From Bombella apis (GTDB lineage: Bacteria; Pseudomonadota; Alphaproteobacteria; Acetobacterales; Acetobacteraceae): DNA of 64,000 bases. This document shows positions 2,640-10,271 of this stretch, piece by piece. Each line of letters starts with the position of its first letter. Positions within the stretch are counted from its first letter, which is position 1. The stretch spans positions 186,001 to 250,000 of the forward strand of contig NZ_JAGJTM010000003.1 in assembly GCF_018221685.1 (NCBI RefSeq), given 5' to 3'. The notes under the pieces are model-generated. The model saw only the letters and a list, made by a program, of their open reading frames with translations, had not been told where the DNA came from and made no database searches. A program made the translations under genes and the position numbers.

Positions 2640-3659
2640 TTATCGGGTCATCCTATCGCCCAGAATCCCGACCGCCAATGCATAATAATCGGAAGGATTA
2701 TAGGCCCGTATCGCACGGAAATTATGATAAACGAGGAAGGCCTGTCCACCAGGTCCATCCGGCTGGAGCAGGCTGCCCGTAGCCTGCGGTGCCAGGAACC
2801 CGGAAGACTGGACCGGCCTCACCCCCATAGCCTGCCACGTGCTGACAGGATGCACGGGGGCATGGCGGGATTTCGTGGCAGCCAGAGCCGTGAACTGCCC
2901 ATTGCTCCCCAGCGGGACCACAACCTCTTCTCCCCAGGGTTCACCACGCCGCCAGCCCGACCGTCCCAAGTAATTGGCAATGGAGGCAAAAACATCCGCT
3001 TCGGAACTCCAGATATTCGCCTTTCCATCACCATCACCATCCGCCGCAAAACGCAGATAGGCACTCGGCATGAACTGAGGCTGCCCCATGGCACCGGCAT
3101 AGCTGCCCAGCATGCTGGCCGGACTGATGACCCCCTGAGCCAATATCTGCATGGCCTTGATCAGCTCGCTACGGAAAAAGGCAGCCCGCCTGCCATCAAA
3201 GGCCAGAGTGGCCAAGGCCTCGATGACATTAAAACGGCCCTGATGCTCTCCAAACCCTGATTCCAGCCCCCATATGCCCATGATGGCGTTGTCATCACAG
3301 CCCAGCGTCTGCCCCAAAGGCGACAGTGTCCCCCGCACCCTCTGCCAGGCCTGCCGCCCTTTTTCTTCCCGGGCAGACGAGATCACACGTGCACGGTATT
3401 GCGCCCATGTCAGGGTAAATTCCGGCTGGTGCCGGTCCAGCCGCAAAACCTCCTGATTGGGGGCCTGAGCCAGCGCAAGGGACTGCTCCACAATAGCCGA
3501 CGGCACACCAGCCGACAGGGCCTGCTGCCGCACACCTCCCAGGAACGCTGCATAATCGGCCGTCCCCCGAGAGGCCACCGCCCGACCACCTGCCCAGGCA
3601 GGCAGACCGCCCATCATCAACCCTCCCGCCGTGGCAGCCAGAAAATGACGCCTCTTCAT
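2640..3659 (-). CDS. lytic murein transglycosylase, MltB/SLT_2 type
   Basis: Predicted to cleave peptidoglycan glycan strands to 1,6-anhydromuramic products in the periplasm. The 339-residue protein starts MKRRHFLAATAGG, a clear twin-arginine signal. The catalytic Glu lies in GIWGLESGFG (about residue 133). The segments YAGAMGQPQFMPSAY, DGDGDGKANIW and FASIANYLGRSGWRRGEPWG are the family signature. The ATG at 3659 fits the signal peptide; ATG at 3674, with AAGGGGAG ten bases upstream, is an equally possible start. Longer in-frame extension would run across the divergent DedA gene and is not credible. It is probably the first gene of the operon with the carboxypeptidase, tmk and holB. Confidence 0.88.
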   Translation of the reverse strand: MKRRHFLAATAGGLMMGGLPAWAGGRAVASRGTADYAAFLGGVRQQALSAGVPSAIVEQSLALAQAPNQEVLRLDRHQPEFTLTWAQYRARVISSAREEKGRQAWQRVRGTLSPLGQTLGCDDNAIMGIWGLESGFGEHQGRFNVIEALATLAFDGRRAAFFRSELIKAMQILAQGVISPASMLGSYAGAMGQPQFMPSAYLRFAADGDGDGKANIWSSEADVFASIANYLGRSGWRRGEPWGEEVVVPLGSNGQFTALAATKSRHAPVHPVSTWQAMGVRPVQSSGFLAPQATGSLLQPDGPGGQAFLVYHNFRAIRAYNPSDYYALAVGILGDRMTR

Positions 3660-3752
3660 CATTCCACTTCCCATCACGCCTGATCTCCCCTTCATCATCC
3701 AAAGGAACGCCCCGATATACCCGGCACTGCCGATTGCGGACAGACGCATTTC

Positions 3753-4358
3753 ATGGCACAGTCCCGCCAACCACAGCCAGGACCGTTCTTTGTGATCCGT
3801 ATCAGCGCTATCATGGCGTCCCAGCCTGTCTGGCTGAAAGCCTTTTCTGTCATCCTTGGTACCTTTATCCTGGAAGATGTTGCAACCGTCCTGGCGGCCA
3901 TTGCGTCCAAAGGAAACCAGATTTCCATCCCTCTGGCACTTGGCAGCCTTTATGCCGGGGTGGCCTTGGGTGACATGGGCCTTTATGCCCTCGGTCTGGC
4001 AGGAAGCCGATGGACGTTCCTGCGCCGTTTCCTGACCCTCCCCAGCGAGGAGCAGGCAAAATGGTGGTTCTCCCGCAACATCATAGGGGTTGTGGCCATT
4101 TCCCGCTTTGTTCCAGGCAGCCGCCTGCCGCTCTATACGGCCTGCGGTTTCTTCCGTGCGCCCTTTCTGGCCTTCGCCCTGACGGCCATAGGCGCAACGC
4201 TGGTCTGGACAAGCCTGCTCTTCCTGCTGGCACTGCATGTTGGCGGGTGGCTTCTGGCGCATCAGGGTGGCTGGCGCTGGGCGGGAATCATCGGCTTCAT
4301 CCTCTGCATTTTCCTGATGGGACGTTTCATCAGCCACCTGCAACGTAGGAACACATAG
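3753..4358 (+). CDS. DedA-family membrane protein
   Basis: A 201-residue polytopic inner-membrane protein. The segment AISRFVPGSRLPLYTACGFF (about residues 125-144) is the DedA/SNARE-associated signature with the conserved Arg-x-x-Pro-Gly-x-Arg, flanked by hydrophobic helices. An acidic residue (Glu, FILEDVA) sits in the first membrane region, as in other members. DedA proteins include the undecaprenyl-phosphate and phospholipid flippases of the UptA/PopT type, so lipid carrier recycling is a reasonable inference. The next gene starts three bases after its stop, which makes the two a coupled pair. ATG at 3813 is an alternative start. No strong ribosome site is visible. Confidence 0.85.
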   Translation: MAQSRQPQPGPFFVIRISAIMASQPVWLKAFSVILGTFILEDVATVLAAIASKGNQISIPLALGSLYAGVALGDMGLYALGLAGSRWTFLRRFLTLPSEEQAKWWFSRNIIGVVAISRFVPGSRLPLYTACGFFRAPFLAFALTAIGATLVWTSLLFLLALHVGGWLLAHQGGWRWAGIIGFILCIFLMGRFISHLQRRNT

Positions 4359-4361
4359 TCC

Positions 4362-5426
4362 ATGACAGCACCTTCTTCCCATCACAAGACGCTGTCCCTC
4401 TTCGAGTTCTGGCCCGACAGCATTTTCTATACCCCCATCGTCATCTACTGGATTCTCATGGGGTTACGTCATGGAGACCTCAGCATCTCCACGGCTGCCA
4501 ATCCCCGTATCGAAACAGGTGGCCTCTGTGGCGAGAGCAAAAGCTCCATTCTGGACATGGTCGGCCCCACGGCCCGAGAGGCCATTGCCCCGTATCGGAT
4601 CATTCATAACGGAGCTGATGCAGCCCGGGATGTGCTGGCCGCCATGAAGGAAATGGGGATCGACTTCCCGGTCGTGCTCAAGCCTGACATCGGCTGTAAC
4701 GGTACGGGAGTGAGGCTGATCACCTCCCTGGCCATGCTCCACGAGGTGCTGCCACTCTTCCCGGCGGGTGTGGCCCTGATGGTGCAGCAGCTCATCACCT
4801 ACCCGATGGAAGCAGGCATCTTCTATATCCGTCATCCTGATGAGCCTGTCGGCCGCATCACCTCCCTCACTTACAAGGAGGCCCCTGTCCTGACCGGCAA
4901 TGGTCGCTCCACACTCAAGGAGCTCATCATGGCCGACCCCCGGATGCGACAGGTGCCACAGCTCTATCTGCCCCGTATCAGTGGCCGTGAAACCGAGATT
5001 CTGCCCGCCGGAGAAACGCTGTCACTGGTTTTTGCCGGAAATCACTGCAAGGGGTCCATCTTCCGGAATGGGAGGCCGGACATCACTCCGGCACTCACGG
5101 AACGCATCAACGCCATCATGCTGGACATACCGGACTTCCATTTCGGCCGGATCGACCTCAAGATGGCTTCCCCAGAAGCTCTGAAGCGTGGGGAAGACTT
5201 TCAGATCATCGAGATCAATGGGGTCGGGTCAGAGGCCATCCATATCTGGGACCGGCGCACGACTCTGACAGAGGCCTACCGCACCCAGATCTACCATTAC
5301 CGGCAGGCCTTCCTCATCGGTGCTGCAAAAAAGAAAGAAGGCTGGAAAAGTTCCGGCATTCTGGGGATGCTCCGCTCCTGGCTGAAGCAGCGGCGCCTGC
5401 TGGCGTCCTACCCGACCAACGACTGA
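4362..5426 (+). CDS. ATP-grasp domain protein of unknown substrate (D-Ala-D-Ala ligase-like)
   Basis: A 354-residue protein. The N-terminus carries a hydrophobic, aromatic stretch (IFYTPIVIYWILMG, about residues 21-34) that may anchor it in or on the membrane, followed by TAANPRIETGGLCGESKS. The central part is an ATP-grasp fold: FPVVLKPDIGCNGTGVRL (first Lys and glycine-rich loop), the hydrophobic VQQLI strand and the metal-binding IIEINGVGSEAIHIWD near the end. The C-terminus is basic. ATP-grasp enzymes ligate a carboxylate to an amine or thiol via an acyl-phosphate. It is often labelled D-alanine-D-alanine ligase, but no Ddl signature confirms that. It is coupled to the upstream DedA gene, which suggests an envelope substrate. 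Function unknown. Confidence 0.75.
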   Translation: MTAPSSHHKTLSLFEFWPDSIFYTPIVIYWILMGLRHGDLSISTAANPRIETGGLCGESKSSILDMVGPTAREAIAPYRIIHNGADAARDVLAAMKEMGIDFPVVLKPDIGCNGTGVRLITSLAMLHEVLPLFPAGVALMVQQLITYPMEAGIFYIRHPDEPVGRITSLTYKEAPVLTGNGRSTLKELIMADPRMRQVPQLYLPRISGRETEILPAGETLSLVFAGNHCKGSIFRNGRPDITPALTERINAIMLDIPDFHFGRIDLKMASPEALKRGEDFQIIEINGVGSEAIHIWDRRTTLTEAYRTQIYHYRQAFLIGAAKKKEGWKSSGILGMLRSWLKQRRLLASYPTND

Positions 5427-5497: not shown

Positions 5498-5956
5498 CTA
5501 AAGCCTGCCCGCACCAAATATGTAATTGCTGATCTGCTGCTCCAGAGACAGCAGGGGGTGGGCATCCAGAATGGTGGCACCAGCCGGCAATGTCTGCCCT
5601 GCCTTGCCGGGCAGCAGCTGAAGGGCATTGTCCCCGCCAATGGTCGGTGCCGCAATGGCCACAGCCGTATCCTGCGGGAGCTTCAGATCATCCCGTACGG
5701 CAAACTGCACGTCCACGATGGCGGTTTCCGGATTCAGCGTGATGGAACGCACACGCCCCACGGTTACACCGCCAAGGTCCACGTCAGCCCCCTCATCCAG
5801 ACCATTCGCGGAACTGAATGTCGCATGATAGCCTGTCATGTGGCGATCCGGCCCCTCCAGCAGGCCCAGCCCATAGGCAACGAACCCGCCGGCTGCCAGA
5901 AGAACACAGCTGCTGGCAATGAATGCTCCGCCACGCCCTTTAAGGATCGCCCACAT
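5498..5956 (-). CDS. mlaD: MlaD-like (MCE domain) phospholipid-binding protein
   Basis: About 152 residues with one N-terminal membrane helix (AFIASSCVLLAAGGFVAYGL) and one MCE domain: YHATFSSANGLDEGADVDLG followed by GVTVGRVRSITL is the typical MlaD beta-barrel signature. It would sit in the inner membrane facing the periplasm and pass phospholipids between the membranes. I prefer the ATG at 5956 because GAGGTG lies just upstream; ATG at 6016 is an in-frame alternative giving 20 more residues. No mlaE, mlaF or mlaC lies in the window, so it is isolated from the usual ABC transporter. Extension beyond 6016 would overlap uppP and is not real. Confidence 0.8.
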   Translation of the reverse strand: MWAILKGRGGAFIASSCVLLAAGGFVAYGLGLLEGPDRHMTGYHATFSSANGLDEGADVDLGGVTVGRVRSITLNPETAIVDVQFAVRDDLKLPQDTAVAIAAPTIGGDNALQLLPGKAGQTLPAGATILDAHPLLSLEQQISNYIFGAGRL

Positions 5957-6121
5957 AGACACCTCGAAATTCACGCCCCAGTCTGCTAGCCTTGCGACCG
6001 GAGAAGCTGATTTCATGAAAAACAACAGAACGTTACCGCTACCATAGATGGGACTTTCCCACCAGCATCCGTCACGGCTTTTCCTCAATCTCCCCCACCT
6101 CCAGACAGACCATGGTTCCGC

Positions 6122-6982
6122 ATGACAGATCTCCAGGCCTTCATCCTCGCCATCATCCAGGGCATCACGGAACCCTTCCCTGTCAGCAGCCTTGGCCATG
6201 CCGTCCTTCTGCCCGGAATCCTTCACTGGTCGCTGGATGAACACAGCCCGACCTTCCTGCCCTTTCTGACCATGCTGCATGTCGGCACGCTGGTGGCTCT
6301 GGCGCATGTCTTCTGGGGGGACTGGCGGGCTATCCTGCTCGGCCTCTTCTCCCCCCGCAGGACAGCCAGAACCCGCAACAAGGCGATCCACCTGTGCAGC
6401 CTGCTTGTCGTGGCCACAATACCAGCCGTCATCATGGGCGGACTGTTTGAGCATCACCTGCGGCTCGTTTTTGCCAATCCGCTCATGGTGGCAGGATTCC
6501 TGACCCTCAACGGCCTGCTGCTCATCCTGACGGAGATCATGCGCCGCCGGGCCCTCCGGCATGAACAGGACAATGCCTACCAGACACAGGAACTCTCCTG
6601 GAAAGATGCCCTCATCATCGGCCTCTGGCAATGTCTGGCCCTGTTCCCCGGGCTATCACGCTCCGGTGCCACCATTAATGGTGGGCTGATGCGGGGACTG
6701 GACCATCTGACAGCGACACGCTTTTCCCTGCTCATGGCCCAGCCGATCATTCTGGCAGCCACGGCCAAAGAGGCCTGGCAGCTCCGCCATGTCCATCTCT
6801 CCAGCAGCATGATCACGCAGTCCCTCATCGGCGCTGTCGTGGCTGGCGTAACGGCCCTCATCTGCTCCCGGCTCCTGCTGCGCTTCTTCCATGATGACAA
6901 CCGGCACACCCTGACAGGATTCGGCATTTACTGCATCCTTGCAGGCCTTGGCAGCGCCTGCCTTCTCCATTTTCACCCCTGA
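6122..6982 (+). CDS. uppP: undecaprenyl-diphosphatase
   Basis: Removes a phosphate from undecaprenyl diphosphate, regenerating the lipid carrier for peptidoglycan and polysaccharide synthesis. The 286-residue protein is strongly hydrophobic. Motif one is QGITEPFPVSSLGH at residues 13-26, fitting (E/Q)xxxE with Gln13 and Glu17 and the conserved His26. Motif two is LFPGLSRSGAT, fitting PGxSRSxxT. Helices continue to the C-terminus. It is divergent from the mlaD-like gene. The variant PFPVSSLGH instead of FLPVSSTGH is familiar to me from acetic acid bacteria. No strong ribosome site is visible ahead of the ATG. Confidence 0.95.
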   Translation: MTDLQAFILAIIQGITEPFPVSSLGHAVLLPGILHWSLDEHSPTFLPFLTMLHVGTLVALAHVFWGDWRAILLGLFSPRRTARTRNKAIHLCSLLVVATIPAVIMGGLFEHHLRLVFANPLMVAGFLTLNGLLLILTEIMRRRALRHEQDNAYQTQELSWKDALIIGLWQCLALFPGLSRSGATINGGLMRGLDHLTATRFSLLMAQPIILAATAKEAWQLRHVHLSSSMITQSLIGAVVAGVTALICSRLLLRFFHDDNRHTLTGFGIYCILAGLGSACLLHFHP

Positions 6983-7112: not shown

Positions 7113-8615
7113 ATGAACAAGGCGCGCCGCAAGACCCTCTCCCAGATACAGTCCGCTGGTGGACAGCATAACTTCAAGCGCAGCCTTGGCGCCACGCAGC
7201 TCCTGCTCATGGGCGTGGGGACCGCCATTGGAGCGGGCGTGTACGTCATCACAGGGACGGCGGCAGCAGAATATGCCGGGCCTTCCGTCCTTCTCTCTTT
7301 CCTGATTGCCGCTGCGGCGTGCCTGTTCACGGCACTCTGTTATGGGGAGCTGGCCTCCACCTTCCCTGTCTCCGGGTCAGCCTATGCTTATGCCTATCTC
7401 TCCATGGGCGAGAAAATGGCATGGGTGACCGGCTGGCTGCTCATACTGGAATATGGCATTGCCGGTACCGCCGTGGCGGCCGGCTTTTCGGGCTACCTGA
7501 CATCCCTGCTCAGTGGGTTCGGCATCCATCTTCCGGCTGTCATTTCCCAGACAACCTTTCAGTCCATCCCTCATTCAAGTACCGGCCTGCTGGCCTTTCA
7601 TCCCAGCTTCAACCTGATCGGCCTGGTTGTCATGCTGTTCATCAGCCTGGTCCTGACCCGTGGGATTGAGGTCGCAGCACGGTTCAACACGGCCTTCGTC
7701 AGCATCAAGATCGGCGTGCTGGCACTGTTTGTCGGGGTTGGCCTGTTCTATCTCCATCCTGCCTACTGGCACCCATTCATCCCGCCTTCGGAAGGGAATT
7801 TCCATTTCGGCGTGGCTGGCATCTTCCGGGCTGCCTCGATCATCTTCTTTGCCTATGGTGGTTTCGAAACCGTCTCCACCGCAGCGGCAGAAGCCCGCAA
7901 CCCCACCAGGGATGTGCCCATAGGCATCATCGGCAGTCTCATCATCTGTACGTTGGTTTATGTCACCGTGGCGGCCGTACTGCTGGGCATTGCGCCCTAT
8001 CAGATGCTGGATGTGCCAGACCCTCTGGCCATCGCAACGGGCCTCATGAATCAGCCGTGGATGGCCTTTCTCATCAATGCAGGGGCCACGGTCGGGCTGT
8101 TCTCCGTTCTTATCGGTCTGCTTTATGCAATTTCCCGCATGGTCCACGCCATCAGCCATGACGGACTTCTACCGGGCATCTTCAGCGTCGTGCATCCACG
8201 CTTCAGGACACCATGGCTGGCCACGCTGCTGCTGGGCCTCATCCTGGGGCTGATGAGCGCCACCATGCCCATCGCACTGCTGGGGGATCTGCTCTGCATT
8301 GGCACCACACTGGCCTTCAGCATCGTCTGCTTCACTGTCATCTGGCAACGCAACAGGGCACCGGAGACACACCGGCCCTTCCAGGTGCCACTCGGAGGAA
8401 TCCGCATCCGGGGGATCTGGCTGGGCATCACGCCCATGCTGGGCATTTTCTTCTGTCTCTGCATGATTGTTCCCCTGGGGCTGAACATACTGCACGTCAC
8501 CCTGCAGGGTAACATCATCCCGCTGGCCTTCTTCATCCTCTATACAGGGCTGGGTTTTGCGACCTATCTGTTCTATGGACGGCATAACTCGACCATGAAG
8601 CAGCCTCCATCCTGA
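7113..8615 (+). CDS. APC-superfamily amino acid permease (CAT-like), copy 1
   Basis: A 500-residue inner-membrane transporter with about 12 hydrophobic helices. The first helix carries LLLMGVGTAIGAGVYVITG, the GxGxxIGxGxY substrate-binding turn of the amino acid-polyamine-organocation superfamily. The sixth carries FFAYGGFETVSTAAAEARNP, the conserved F/Y-GFE motif. This arrangement suggests the cationic amino acid transporter branch, but the substrate cannot be read. A close paralogue follows 114 bases downstream. The start at 7113 has no obvious ribosome site and may depend on the short frames upstream. Confidence 0.9.
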   Translation: MNKARRKTLSQIQSAGGQHNFKRSLGATQLLLMGVGTAIGAGVYVITGTAAAEYAGPSVLLSFLIAAAACLFTALCYGELASTFPVSGSAYAYAYLSMGEKMAWVTGWLLILEYGIAGTAVAAGFSGYLTSLLSGFGIHLPAVISQTTFQSIPHSSTGLLAFHPSFNLIGLVVMLFISLVLTRGIEVAARFNTAFVSIKIGVLALFVGVGLFYLHPAYWHPFIPPSEGNFHFGVAGIFRAASIIFFAYGGFETVSTAAAEARNPTRDVPIGIIGSLIICTLVYVTVAAVLLGIAPYQMLDVPDPLAIATGLMNQPWMAFLINAGATVGLFSVLIGLLYAISRMVHAISHDGLLPGIFSVVHPRFRTPWLATLLLGLILGLMSATMPIALLGDLLCIGTTLAFSIVCFTVIWQRNRAPETHRPFQVPLGGIRIRGIWLGITPMLGIFFCLCMIVPLGLNILHVTLQGNIIPLAFFILYTGLGFATYLFYGRHNSTMKQPPS

Positions 8616-8632: not shown

Positions 8633-8737
8633 ATGGTTTCCATTTCCGATTACGAGGCGAGGATGGCCGCAGGGGCAACCTGCCCATCCATCAAGTCCGC
8701 TGTCTATTTCTGGATGATCCACCCTCTTTATGCGTAA
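8633..8737 (+). CDS. possible 34-codon ORF overlapping the second permease start
   Basis: ATG at 8633, with GAAGG seven bases upstream, opens a frame of 34 codons that ends at TAA 8735-8737, overlapping the ATG (8730) of the second permease. I recognise no family in the product. It might couple translation between the two permeases or be chance. Confidence 0.2.
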   Translation: MVSISDYEARMAAGATCPSIKSAVYFWMIHPLYA

Positions 8738-10271
8738 ACGTTCCTCCTCCTCCGCCAGGCGTCGTGATCCACGGCGCAAGACCATGAGCCAGATCACGGC
8801 AGAAAATGATTCCGTCACGCTCAAAAGAAGTCTGACAGCCACGCAGCTTCTGCTCATGGGGGTCGGAACGACCGTTGGGGCGGGCGTCTATGTCATGACG
8901 GGTACGGCGGCGGCTGAATATGCCGGACCTGCCGTGCTGCTCTCCTTCCTTGTAGCGGCGGCAGCCTGTCTCTTCACGGCTTTCTGTTATGGGGAGCTCT
9001 CTTCCACCTTCCCGGTATCCGGCTCCTCCTACTCCTATGCCTACATCTCCATGGGAGAACGGGCAGCATGGAATGTCAGCTGGCTGATGCTGCTTGAATA
9101 CGGCATATCCTGCACCGCTGTAGCGGCTGGTCTTTCGGGCTACATGAACTCCCTGCTGGGCATTTTCAACATCCATCTGCCAGTCTGGCTGACACAGACA
9201 AGCCTTCAGCCGGTGCCCGGCTCCGAAGGAACAGCGCTGACAGCCGGATTCCGGCTGGACCTGATCGGCTTCATCTCCGTGTTGCTGGTAACCGCCCTGC
9301 TGGCCCGTGGTGTTGAAGAATCCGCCCGCTTCAACTCTCTCGTTGTCGCCCTGAAAATTGGTGTCCTGTTCCTCTTCCTCATCATCGGTGTCAGTTACAT
9401 CACCCCGGCCAACTGGTTCCCCTTCATTCCACCGGCTCAGGCCCATTTCCACTTTGGTGTGGCTGGCATCTTCCGGGCAGCCTCCATCATATTCTTTGCC
9501 TATGGAGGGTTCGAAGCCGTTTCCACTGCTTCATCAGAGGCCCGCAATCCAACACGTGACATTCCCATCGGCATCATTGGCAGCCTGCTGATCTGCACGC
9601 TGATCTATGTTGCCGTAGCAGCCGTACTGCTGGGAATCGTGCCCTACAGCAAGCTGAATGTGGCTGACCCCCTGGCCGTTGCCACACAGGCCATGGGCAA
9701 ACCGTGGCTGGCCCTGCTGGTGAATGGCGGCGCCACCATCGGCCTTTCCTCCGTCCTGCTGGGCCTGATGTATGGTCAGTCCCGCATCCTGCTGACCACC
9801 GGGCGGGACGGGCTCATCCCGTCCGTCTTTAGCAGGATCCACAAGCGCTACCGCACACCAGCCCGTGGGACATTCATCATGGGGACCATCATTGCCCTGA
9901 TGACAGCCACCCTGCCCATCGACATCATCAGCGATCTCGTTTCCCTCGGGACAGCACTGGCCTTCGCCATGGTCTGCTTTACGGTCATCTGGCAGCGCAA
10001 TTATGCTGCCGATACCCGGCGCCCCTTCAGCGTGCCACTGGGAGGAATCCGTATCCGGGGATTCTGGATTGGCCTTACGCCTGTTCTGGGGATCATTTTC
10101 TGCCTGATCATGATCCTGCCACTGATCTTCAACATGATCCACGCCCTGCTGGGCGGCAATCCTGTTCCCGTCATTCTGCTGGTCACCTACTTCCTGATCG
10201 GTGCGCTGACCTATCGCTTCTACGGGTATCACAACTCCCGCATGGCCAATCCGTCAGCCTCAGCAGAATAA
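8730..10271 (+). CDS. APC-superfamily amino acid permease (CAT-like), copy 2
   Basis: A 513-residue paralogue of the preceding gene, collinear over the whole length. The first-helix motif is LLLMGVGTTVGAGVYVMTG and the sixth-helix motif FFAYGGFEAVSTASSEARNP. The block FHFGVAGIFRAASIIFFAYG is shared exactly with copy 1. The N-terminus is longer and very basic (RKRSSSSARRRDPRRKT). The starts differ but align at the RRKTxSQI segment; ATG at 8784 is an alternative. Divergence is concentrated in the loops and in helices 4-5, suggesting a different substrate range after duplication. A strong inverted repeat lies just after the stop. Confidence 0.9.
   Translation: MRKRSSSSARRRDPRRKTMSQITAENDSVTLKRSLTATQLLLMGVGTTVGAGVYVMTGTAAAEYAGPAVLLSFLVAAAACLFTAFCYGELSSTFPVSGSSYSYAYISMGERAAWNVSWLMLLEYGISCTAVAAGLSGYMNSLLGIFNIHLPVWLTQTSLQPVPGSEGTALTAGFRLDLIGFISVLLVTALLARGVEESARFNSLVVALKIGVLFLFLIIGVSYITPANWFPFIPPAQAHFHFGVAGIFRAASIIFFAYGGFEAVSTASSEARNPTRDIPIGIIGSLLICTLIYVAVAAVLLGIVPYSKLNVADPLAVATQAMGKPWLALLVNGGATIGLSSVLLGLMYGQSRILLTTGRDGLIPSVFSRIHKRYRTPARGTFIMGTIIALMTATLPIDIISDLVSLGTALAFAMVCFTVIWQRNYAADTRRPFSVPLGGIRIRGFWIGLTPVLGIIFCLIMILPLIFNMIHALLGGNPVPVILLVTYFLIGALTYRFYGYHNSRMANPSASAE

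Follow-up and report, generated by a model that had tools for sequence, protein, structure and literature searches.

A candidate aminolipid headgroup ligase of the ATP-grasp superfamily and its DedA-like partner in Bombella apis and other Pseudomonadota

We propose that an ATP-grasp ligase and the DedA-like membrane protein encoded directly before it in Bombella apis form a headgroup-synthase/translocase unit for an acyloxyacyl aminolipid of the ornithine-lipid class, a reading to which we give a probability of about 0.5. We infer which lipid is used, in which direction the reaction runs, which amine is added and that DedA transports the product. The unit joins a known enzyme fold to a known type of transporter, and no description of such a combination of ATP-grasp enzyme with DedA or another flippase was found in the open-licence literature, in a search that may miss the unhyphenated spelling 'ATP grasp'. 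The new element is a tie of the ligase to acyloxyacyl aminolipids of the ornithine-lipid class, which is suggested by gene linkage in other genomes. The features of the pair within the window, i.e. the whole stretch of 64,000 nucleotides that was analysed, are collected in Table 1.

Table 1. Features of the DedA-ligase pair, in positions of the window
Feature	Position	Strand	Remarks
DedA/VTT-like membrane protein, proposed lipid translocase	3753..4358	+	201 aa; translation may instead begin at an internal ATG (3813)
ATP-grasp ligase ORF, candidate aminolipid headgroup ligase	4362..5426, stop included	+	354 aa, ATG start
N-terminal aromatic/hydrophobic segment, residues 16-36	4407..4469	+	Modelled as a helix (19-37); retained across the family alignment
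Family motif GGLCGESK, residues 53-60	4518..4541	+	K60 and G54 in 134/134 loci, E58 in 133/134
ATP-grasp lysine and glycine-rich loop KPDIGCNGTGV, residues 107-117	4680..4712	+	Aligned with cyanophycin synthetases; K107, G114 and G116 in 134/134
R263-x-D265, predicted metal/phosphate site	5148..5156	+	134/134; D265 aligns with a CphA2 aspartate
E284-x-N286, predicted Mg-binding pair of the ATP-grasp fold	5211..5219	+	134/134; aligns with CphA2
C-terminal helical hairpin, residues 302-349, conserved	5265..5408	+	Model helices 302-325 and 332-349

Ligase family, fold and active site

On the contig, the DedA-like ORF and the ligase ORF share a strand, with 3 bases between the stop of the first and the start of the second. 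Scans for promoters and terminators round the pair gave nothing above chance. Among the matches listed, the closest named relatives of the ligase are those of Bombella intestini and Bombella favorum, with 92% identity (GTDB contigs). The family is large and conserved over its whole length. At least 568 stretches in GTDB contigs match the ligase by tblastn, and it was found in 23 of 60 related genomes, own genome counted, at E<=0.001. It is present in at least 31 of 385 genomes of the class (E<=1e-30) and at full length in at least 9 of 299 genomes of a phylum sample (own genome counted), both counts being lower bounds because only the best 5-6 first-look candidates were scored per genome, so that some genomes classed as ligase-free may be misses. 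In the phylum sample, 6 partial CphA-like matches of 15 (E 2e-13 to 6e-11, positions 89-291) were also classed as ligase-free. The ligase is carried by 28 plasmid records, from Paracoccus, Komagataeibacter, Azospirillum, Salinivibrio, Vibrio, Photobacterium and Variovorax, and its matches in the plasmid collection are all from Pseudomonadota. The loci were compared in a set of 134, which leaves out L154 and L155 (the same places as L181 and L182) and in which 96 loci are from Acetobacteraceae, a predominance that arises because the nearest 80 of the at least 568 GTDB stretches were kept.

Public annotations of the homologues vary from hypothetical protein to ATP-grasp domain protein and D-alanine--D-alanine ligase, and to VTT domain protein when the two genes are fused. 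In the profile searches, the ligase had no Pfam match at E<=1, PF13535 included, and its 7 NCBIfam matches at E<=10 were all below threshold, with no Ddl among them. It scores 20.3 bits with the RimK model TIGR00768 (cut-off 143.4) and 12.1 bits with the cyanophycin synthetase model TIGR02068 (cut-off 850), and is a member of neither family. The sequence-only reading had described an uncharacterised ligase lacking a Ddl signature, and these searches, which give no Pfam subfamily at E<=1 and thus no confident assignment to Ddl, agree with it. A reading as a defence system was dropped, as the ligase has no PADLOC match at E<=1.

The best matches of the family profile are two CphA2 entries (8fxh, E 8e-11; and 7ta5), followed by CphA and GshAB, and Ddl is weaker. 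The entry 7ta5 is labelled glutathione synthase in the sequence table and cyanophycin synthetase 2 in the structure table. The AlphaFold2 model of the ligase, built with 19 sequences, has a pLDDT of 90.5 and a pTM of 0.88, and all structural matches listed for it are ATP-grasp enzymes. The model matches CphA1 with a VIA Z of 16.7 (rmsd 4.8, 270 aligned), LysX/ArgX with 14.7 (rmsd 3.7, 223 aligned), RimK with about 13 and Ddl with about 12-13; the identity of the listed CphA, LysX/ArgX and RimK matches to the ligase is 12-18%. Ten residues, K60, K107, G114, G116, E150, R263, D265, E284, N286 and E291, are invariant in 134 of 134 loci. By alignment and model, then, the ligase is a member of the ATP-grasp superfamily, with the predicted lysines, glycine-rich loop, aspartate and E-x-N pair in place, and K60 is the proposed first ATP-binding lysine. 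The intact ATP-grasp core that had been read from the letters is thus borne out by the profile matches, by the comparison of the predicted structure with known ligases and by the invariant residues.

Three parts are specific to the family, namely the aromatic N-terminal helix, the GGxxGESK motif and the C-terminal helical hairpin, around which G327 (133/134 loci), Y350 (131/134) and P351 (132/134) are nearly constant. Interfacial and Kyte-Doolittle scales are in general use for membrane segments, the latter with a threshold of 1.6. The N-terminal segment of the own ligase has an interfacial score of -7.4 kcal/mol and a Kyte-Doolittle mean of 1.13. Among 26 members, the interfacial score lies between -5.2 and -10.4 kcal/mol in all 26, and the top Kyte-Doolittle mean near the N-terminus is 0.97-1.71, exceeding 1.6 in just 3. 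The aromatic N-terminus remarked on in the sequence-only reading is therefore a conserved trait with interfacial composition, and from its composition and modelled helix we propose that it may serve as a membrane-interface anchor and a guide for acyl chains.

The DedA partner

The own DedA-like protein matches Pfam VTT_dom with E 4.8e-6 and 27.5 bits in one search and with 32 bits in another (cut-off 33.9), and the fused relative at locus L190 scores 43.3 bits, above the same cut-off. With the UptA model NF052604 the own protein gives E 1.1e-4 and 22.3 bits for a cut-off of 250, which rules it out as UptA itself. Neither the ligase nor the DedA-like protein matches the MprF family (Pfam at E<=1, NCBIfam at E<=10).

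Of the 134 loci, 115 have DedA as the gene immediately before the ligase, on the same strand, and in 5 the two are fused. Of the remainder, 12 have no DedA, in the sense that none was found by a profile grown from the DedA of the own window; 1 has it at another nearby position, and 1 sits at the edge of a contig. Since most of the set is Acetobacteraceae, the 38 loci outside this family give the fairer count: 27 with adjacent DedA, 5 fused, 5 with none and 1 with DedA elsewhere. The coupling to a DedA flippase-like protein that had been pointed out for the single locus consequently extends to 120 of the 134 loci, adjacent or fused, and to 32 of the 38. In a tree of 61 rows, the 5 fused rows occupy three places, and the supported branches force at least 2 changes of the fused label against the 12 rows without DedA. 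One Azospirillum record annotates the DedA-ligase fusion as a single VTT protein, and another as two overlapping genes. A model of the L190 fusion, built from 4 rows, is too poor to place the domains (pLDDT 68, pTM 0.54).

One supported branch of nine rows (L031, L032, L174, L176, L178, L179, L193, L194 and L195) has an adjacent DedA only in L176 and L178, and its contexts differ, with DUF1989 and YqcI/YcgG neighbours in L174, L176, L178 and L193. As this branch is mostly without adjacent DedA and stands in other contexts, the ligase family may have more than one substrate.

Association with ornithine-lipid genes

A search for recurrent neighbours returned an OlsF-like ORF of 582-619 aa at eight ligase loci. 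These are the eight full-length ligase loci of the phylum sample other than our own, all non-alphaproteobacterial, and in 8 of 8 the OlsF-like gene shares the strand of the ligase and is at most 2.3 kb away from it. It is 1.8-2.3 kb downstream of the ligase in seven of them, and in the eighth, L190, it ends 34 bases upstream of the fused DedA-ligase ORF. Two of the OlsF-like proteins were checked, and both have PF19576 followed by PF13444, which is the domain order of OlsF; with the OlsF model NF052615 they give E 2.7e-128 and 6e-121 (429 and 405 bits, below the equivalog cut-off of 620). A further linkage is found on a Variovorax plasmid (L032), with the order methyltransferase-like gene, ligase, olsB-type gene and lplT. 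Here the olsB-type gene scores 174.9 bits, below the equivalog cut-off of 320, lplT scores 448.6 bits, over the LplT equivalog cut-off of 297, and the DedA profile found no DedA, so another lipid flippase can adjoin the ligase where DedA is missing. The three linkages (the seven-locus clade, L190 and L032) stand apart in the tree. Salinivibrio has the DedA-ligase pair with no OlsF within 8 kb and no PF13444 on that plasmid. Of four ligase-bearing plasmid records that were searched for PF13444, it is on 1 (Variovorax) and absent from the Azospirillum, Paracoccus and Salinivibrio records, which cover plasmids only.

In the own window, the neighbours are an SLT-type transglycosylase, an MlaD/MCE protein and BacA, with no pointer to ornithine lipids, and in Alphaproteobacteria the link between ligase and ornithine lipids is one of co-occurrence, which is weaker evidence. 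In the class sample, 30 of the 31 genomes with the ligase carry PF13444, compared with 223 of the other 354 (Fisher p 2e-5), and the sole exception, G537, is 57% complete; in the phylum sample it is present in 9 of 9 against 157 of 290 (p 0.005). These Fisher tests treat related genomes as independent, and common ancestry inflates the co-occurrence. In an 80-genome control set, PF13444 occurs in 30 of 31 against 32 of 49 (p 6e-4), and hopene cyclase shows a mild enrichment of 16 of 31 against 14 of 49 (p 0.03), counting two matches (G436 and G101) that are under the family cut-off. When Acetobacteraceae are left out, the figures are 27 of 28 against 30 of 47 for PF13444 (p 8.5e-4) and 13 of 28 against 12 of 47 for hopene cyclase (p 0.055). 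As the hopene cyclase control is enriched too, co-occurrence alone is modest evidence. Within Acetobacteraceae it is uninformative, since all 36 of the 36 members among the 60 relatives have PF13444, with or without the ligase.

An OlsB-type gene stands on a different contig of the own genome, with PF13444 over the cut-off and a match to NF052554 at E 3.9e-85 (285.7 bits, under the equivalog cut-off of 350). The own genome also has two putative PF01553 acyltransferases over the cut-off, which have no specific OlsA assignment. All nine named acetic acid bacteria with the ligase have PF13444. For example, Gluconobacter cerinus NBRC 3267 contains both (L045 for the ligase, G692 for PF13444). Three genomes, G087, G215 and G345, have at least two PF13444 genes each, one of them at the ligase locus, and the presence of several such genes in some genomes means that the added amine may differ between lineages.

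Proposed reaction, alternatives and known systems

ATP-grasp enzymes convert a carboxylate to an acyl phosphate and then to an amide, ester or thioester, and CphA and LysX activate a carboxylate on a large carrier before adding an amine. An ornithine lipid is a membrane lipid with a free carboxylate, so an ATP-grasp enzyme bound at the interface could activate that carboxylate and add an amine to it. In the proposed mechanism, the ligase would be held on the inner leaflet of the inner membrane by its aromatic N-terminal helix and would use ATP-Mg to phosphorylate an ornithine-type lipid, the product of OlsB/OlsA or OlsF, at its free alpha-carboxylate. The acyl phosphate would then be joined to a small amine, giving a dipeptide-like headgroup, and the DedA partner would carry the finished lipid to the outer leaflet, much as MprF moves aminoacyl lipids with its flippase half. 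For acetic acid bacteria, the leading candidate for the amine would be taurine, and the product would be the ornithine-taurine lipid cerilipin. This choice of taurine, made by analogy from what is known of G. cerinus only, is less probable than the aminolipid reading as a whole. No taurine gene was noticed among those neighbours of the ligase that were looked at.

The description of cerilipin dates to 1976, and Bacteroidota are known to make serine-glycine lipids. Cerilipin is the ornithine-taurine lipid of Gluconobacter cerinus (PMC4484230, PMC6669457, in the portions available), and the available text of PMC12493201 lists taurine-ornithine headgroups and taurine transfer as an ornithine-lipid modification, naming no enzyme there. 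A glycine-serine-ornithine headgroup, listed in the accessible part of PMC10191378, shows that extended forms go beyond taurine-ornithine. In the open-licence literature we found no enzyme that adds taurine to a lipid, no serine-glycine lipid ligase and no paper on DedA with an ornithine lipid.

The sequence-only reading had suggested that an amino acid or acyl group is ligated to a lipid-linked or membrane substrate in a reaction new to this setting. The part about a lipid-type substrate stands, since olsF, olsB and lplT are linked to the ligase elsewhere and make such a substrate likely. Aminolipids are now favoured over lipid-linked cell-wall intermediates, and the formation of an amide at the lipid carboxylate over acyl-group transfer. 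As to the novelty of the reaction, the type of product is already known, as cerilipin of G. cerinus, in the parts of PMC4484230 and PMC6669457 at hand, and 'missing enzyme' therefore describes the ligase better than 'new reaction'.

Several other readings were weighed against the aminolipid one. The same pair might act on another lipid, with the ligase putting an amino acid on phosphatidylethanolamine or on a polyprenyl-phosphate-linked sugar amine and DedA moving that lipid. This is unlikely, even if DedA proteins are known for the transport of undecaprenyl phosphate (UptA, as the NCBIfam model is named) and phosphatidylethanolamine (PetA, by a title cited in PMC11980842), and bacA (6122-6982) lies downstream in the own window. 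Against it are the linkage to olsF or olsB in three separate parts of the tree, the PF13444 gene in 30 of the 31 ligase-bearing class genomes and a UptA match far under its cut-off (22.3 against 250 bits). Relatives of bacA are near the ligase at 12 other loci of the diverse compared set, all of them in Acetobacteraceae, and because of this confinement a link to undecaprenyl recycling was not taken up. A reaction in the reverse direction, in which the ligase would activate the carboxylate of an amino acid and load it onto the side-chain amine of an ornithine lipid, analogous to lysyl-phosphatidylglycerol, draws on genomic evidence identical to that for the aminolipid reading, and ATP-grasp enzymes such as Ddl do activate a small amino acid, which counts in its favour. 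We consider it rather improbable, as the available part of PMC12493201 lists taurine-ornithine as the extended headgroup, and taurine lacks a carboxylate that could be activated.

It is still less probable that the ligase is an N-acyl amide synthase, turning the carboxylate of a fatty acid into an acyl phosphate and joining it to an amino acid so as to feed or bypass OlsB. ATP-grasp enzymes of Legionella (Pfam 13535) make acyl-histidine in this way, as the accessible text of PMC11631085 has it; the ligase lacks a PF13535 match at E<=1, and the same text gives OlsB and OlsF as already forming the bond from acyl-ACP, which would make the step redundant in ligase-bearing genomes (30 of 31 in the class). 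Equally small is the chance of a RimK/CphA-type ligase that tails a peptide or protein, possibly the DedA partner, and has no role on lipids. CphA, LysX and RimK are indeed the closest kin by profile and fold, but such an activity would leave the interfacial N-terminus, the DedA fusions and the linkage to ornithine-lipid genes unexplained. The least probable of all is a D-alanine-D-alanine or related cell-wall dipeptide ligase, a label that some plasmid records give to homologues and with which the Ddl structures among the fold matches would agree. The Ddl identity was rejected, as neither Pfam (E<=1) nor NCBIfam gave a Ddl match and the best profile kin are CphA and GshAB, ahead of Ddl. Besides, the own genome encodes a Ddl-type protein apart from the ligase (PF07478, E 1e-40, at C2:55246), its three PF07478 matches all lie away from the window gene, and the patchy spread of the ligase over at least 31 of 385 class genomes is unlike that of an essential gene.

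A wider claim, which we regard as tentative and rather doubtful, is that the ligase founds a family of ATP-grasp aminolipid ligases that would make dipeptide headgroups of the ornithine-taurine type through the lipid's own carboxylate, as a unit with DedA that has been fused more than once, a tRNA-independent counterpart of MprF in Alpha-, Beta- and Gammaproteobacteria. If the aminolipid reading is true, it would put a name to the enzyme behind a type of lipid with a product on record since 1976, and a family often annotated as 'hypothetical' or 'D-alanine--D-alanine ligase' would become a testable lipid-modifying system. One branch of DedA proteins would gain a specific partner enzyme and cargo, and units of headgroup synthase and flippase would turn out to have arisen with an ATP-grasp enzyme too, not with the tRNA-dependent MprF alone.

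Compared with known systems, the ligase shares the core fold, glycine loop, GDG-ST motif and metal residues (D and E-x-N) with CphA/CphA2, GshAB, LysX/ArgX and RimK, but it has an N-terminus of its own, with the aromatic interface helix and GGxxGESK, and scores far under the cut-offs of the CphA/RimK type. With Ddl it has in common the ATP-grasp fold (Z about 12-13) and some public annotations, whereas the ligase has no Pfam match and the Ddl-type protein of the own genome is a separate one. The Legionella acyl-histidine synthase (Pfam 13535) likewise forms an amide on a lipid-like acid, as given in the available text of PMC11631085; the ligase differs in having no PF13535 match (E<=1) and in its proposed substrate, which would be a finished aminolipid and not a free fatty acid. 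Genes of the OlsBA/OlsF pathway are linked to the ligase in some genomes and co-occur with it. The modifications of ornithine lipids include hydroxylation, N-methylation and taurine transfer, and the Ols proteins that the accessible part of PMC12493201 names do not include the ligase. UptA and PetA have the VTT/DedA domain, which the partner protein of the own window matches below the Pfam cut-off; its UptA match is far under the cut-off, and in most loci this DedA goes together with the ligase. The nearest parallel in architecture is MprF, which couples a soluble enzyme for headgroup modification to a membrane domain that translocates lipids. The available text of PMC11980842 also mentions, with reference to Roney and Rudner 2023, fusions of DedA domains to the soluble synthase domains of MprF. 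The substrates of MprF are charged tRNA and phosphatidylglycerol, whereas the pair described here has an unrelated ATP-grasp ligase with DedA and probably works on an aminolipid.

Surroundings of the pair in the window

The DedA-ligase pair is flanked by ORFs on both strands. These ORFs overlap, each being taken to begin at its earliest start codon, so the starts given are provisional. Among the loci compared, relatives of the bacA ORF were found near the ligase in 12 others, all from Acetobacteraceae.

Features around the pair in the window and at the Variovorax plasmid locus (flanking ORFs counted from the first start codon)
Feature	Position	Strand	Remark
SLT-type lytic transglycosylase	window 2640-4385	-	flanks pair
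MlaD/MCE lipid-transport protein	window 5498-6631	-	flanks pair
BacA	window 6122-6982	+	flanks pair
Two similar tandem ORFs	window 7113-8615, 8730-10271	+	putative amino-acid permeases, by-eye resemblance
L032 gene run	NZ_CP070344.1 7009-11107		compact; methyltransferase-like, ligase, olsB-type gene, lplT

Partners of the ligase at other loci

At the Variovorax plasmid locus L032, the LplT lysolipid flippase seems to take the place of the DedA partner. Four loci (L174, L176, L178, L193) share DUF1989 and YqcI/YcgG genes upstream of the ligase, and the ligase substrate may be different there; DedA adjoins the ligase in L176 and L178, and at L174 and L193 it was not found by the profile of the window's DedA.

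In loci L183-L189, DedA, the ligase, further small genes and an OlsF-like gene follow one another on one strand, and the small genes include DinB-like, NRDE and YHS-domain genes in most loci and a DoxX-like gene in some.

Three genomes (G020, G033, G035) carry two ligase copies each, one of which is nearer the window's ligase than the other.

Alpha/beta hydrolases beside the pair

An alpha/beta hydrolase gene adjoins the pair in several lineages (L162, L164, L167, L169, L170, L172), and likewise in Paracoccus (L029, L218). These hydrolases may be lipid acyltransferases or hydrolases, by analogy with OlsI of a planctomycete, an alpha/beta hydrolase that acts as an aminolipid O-acyltransferase (PMC12493201).
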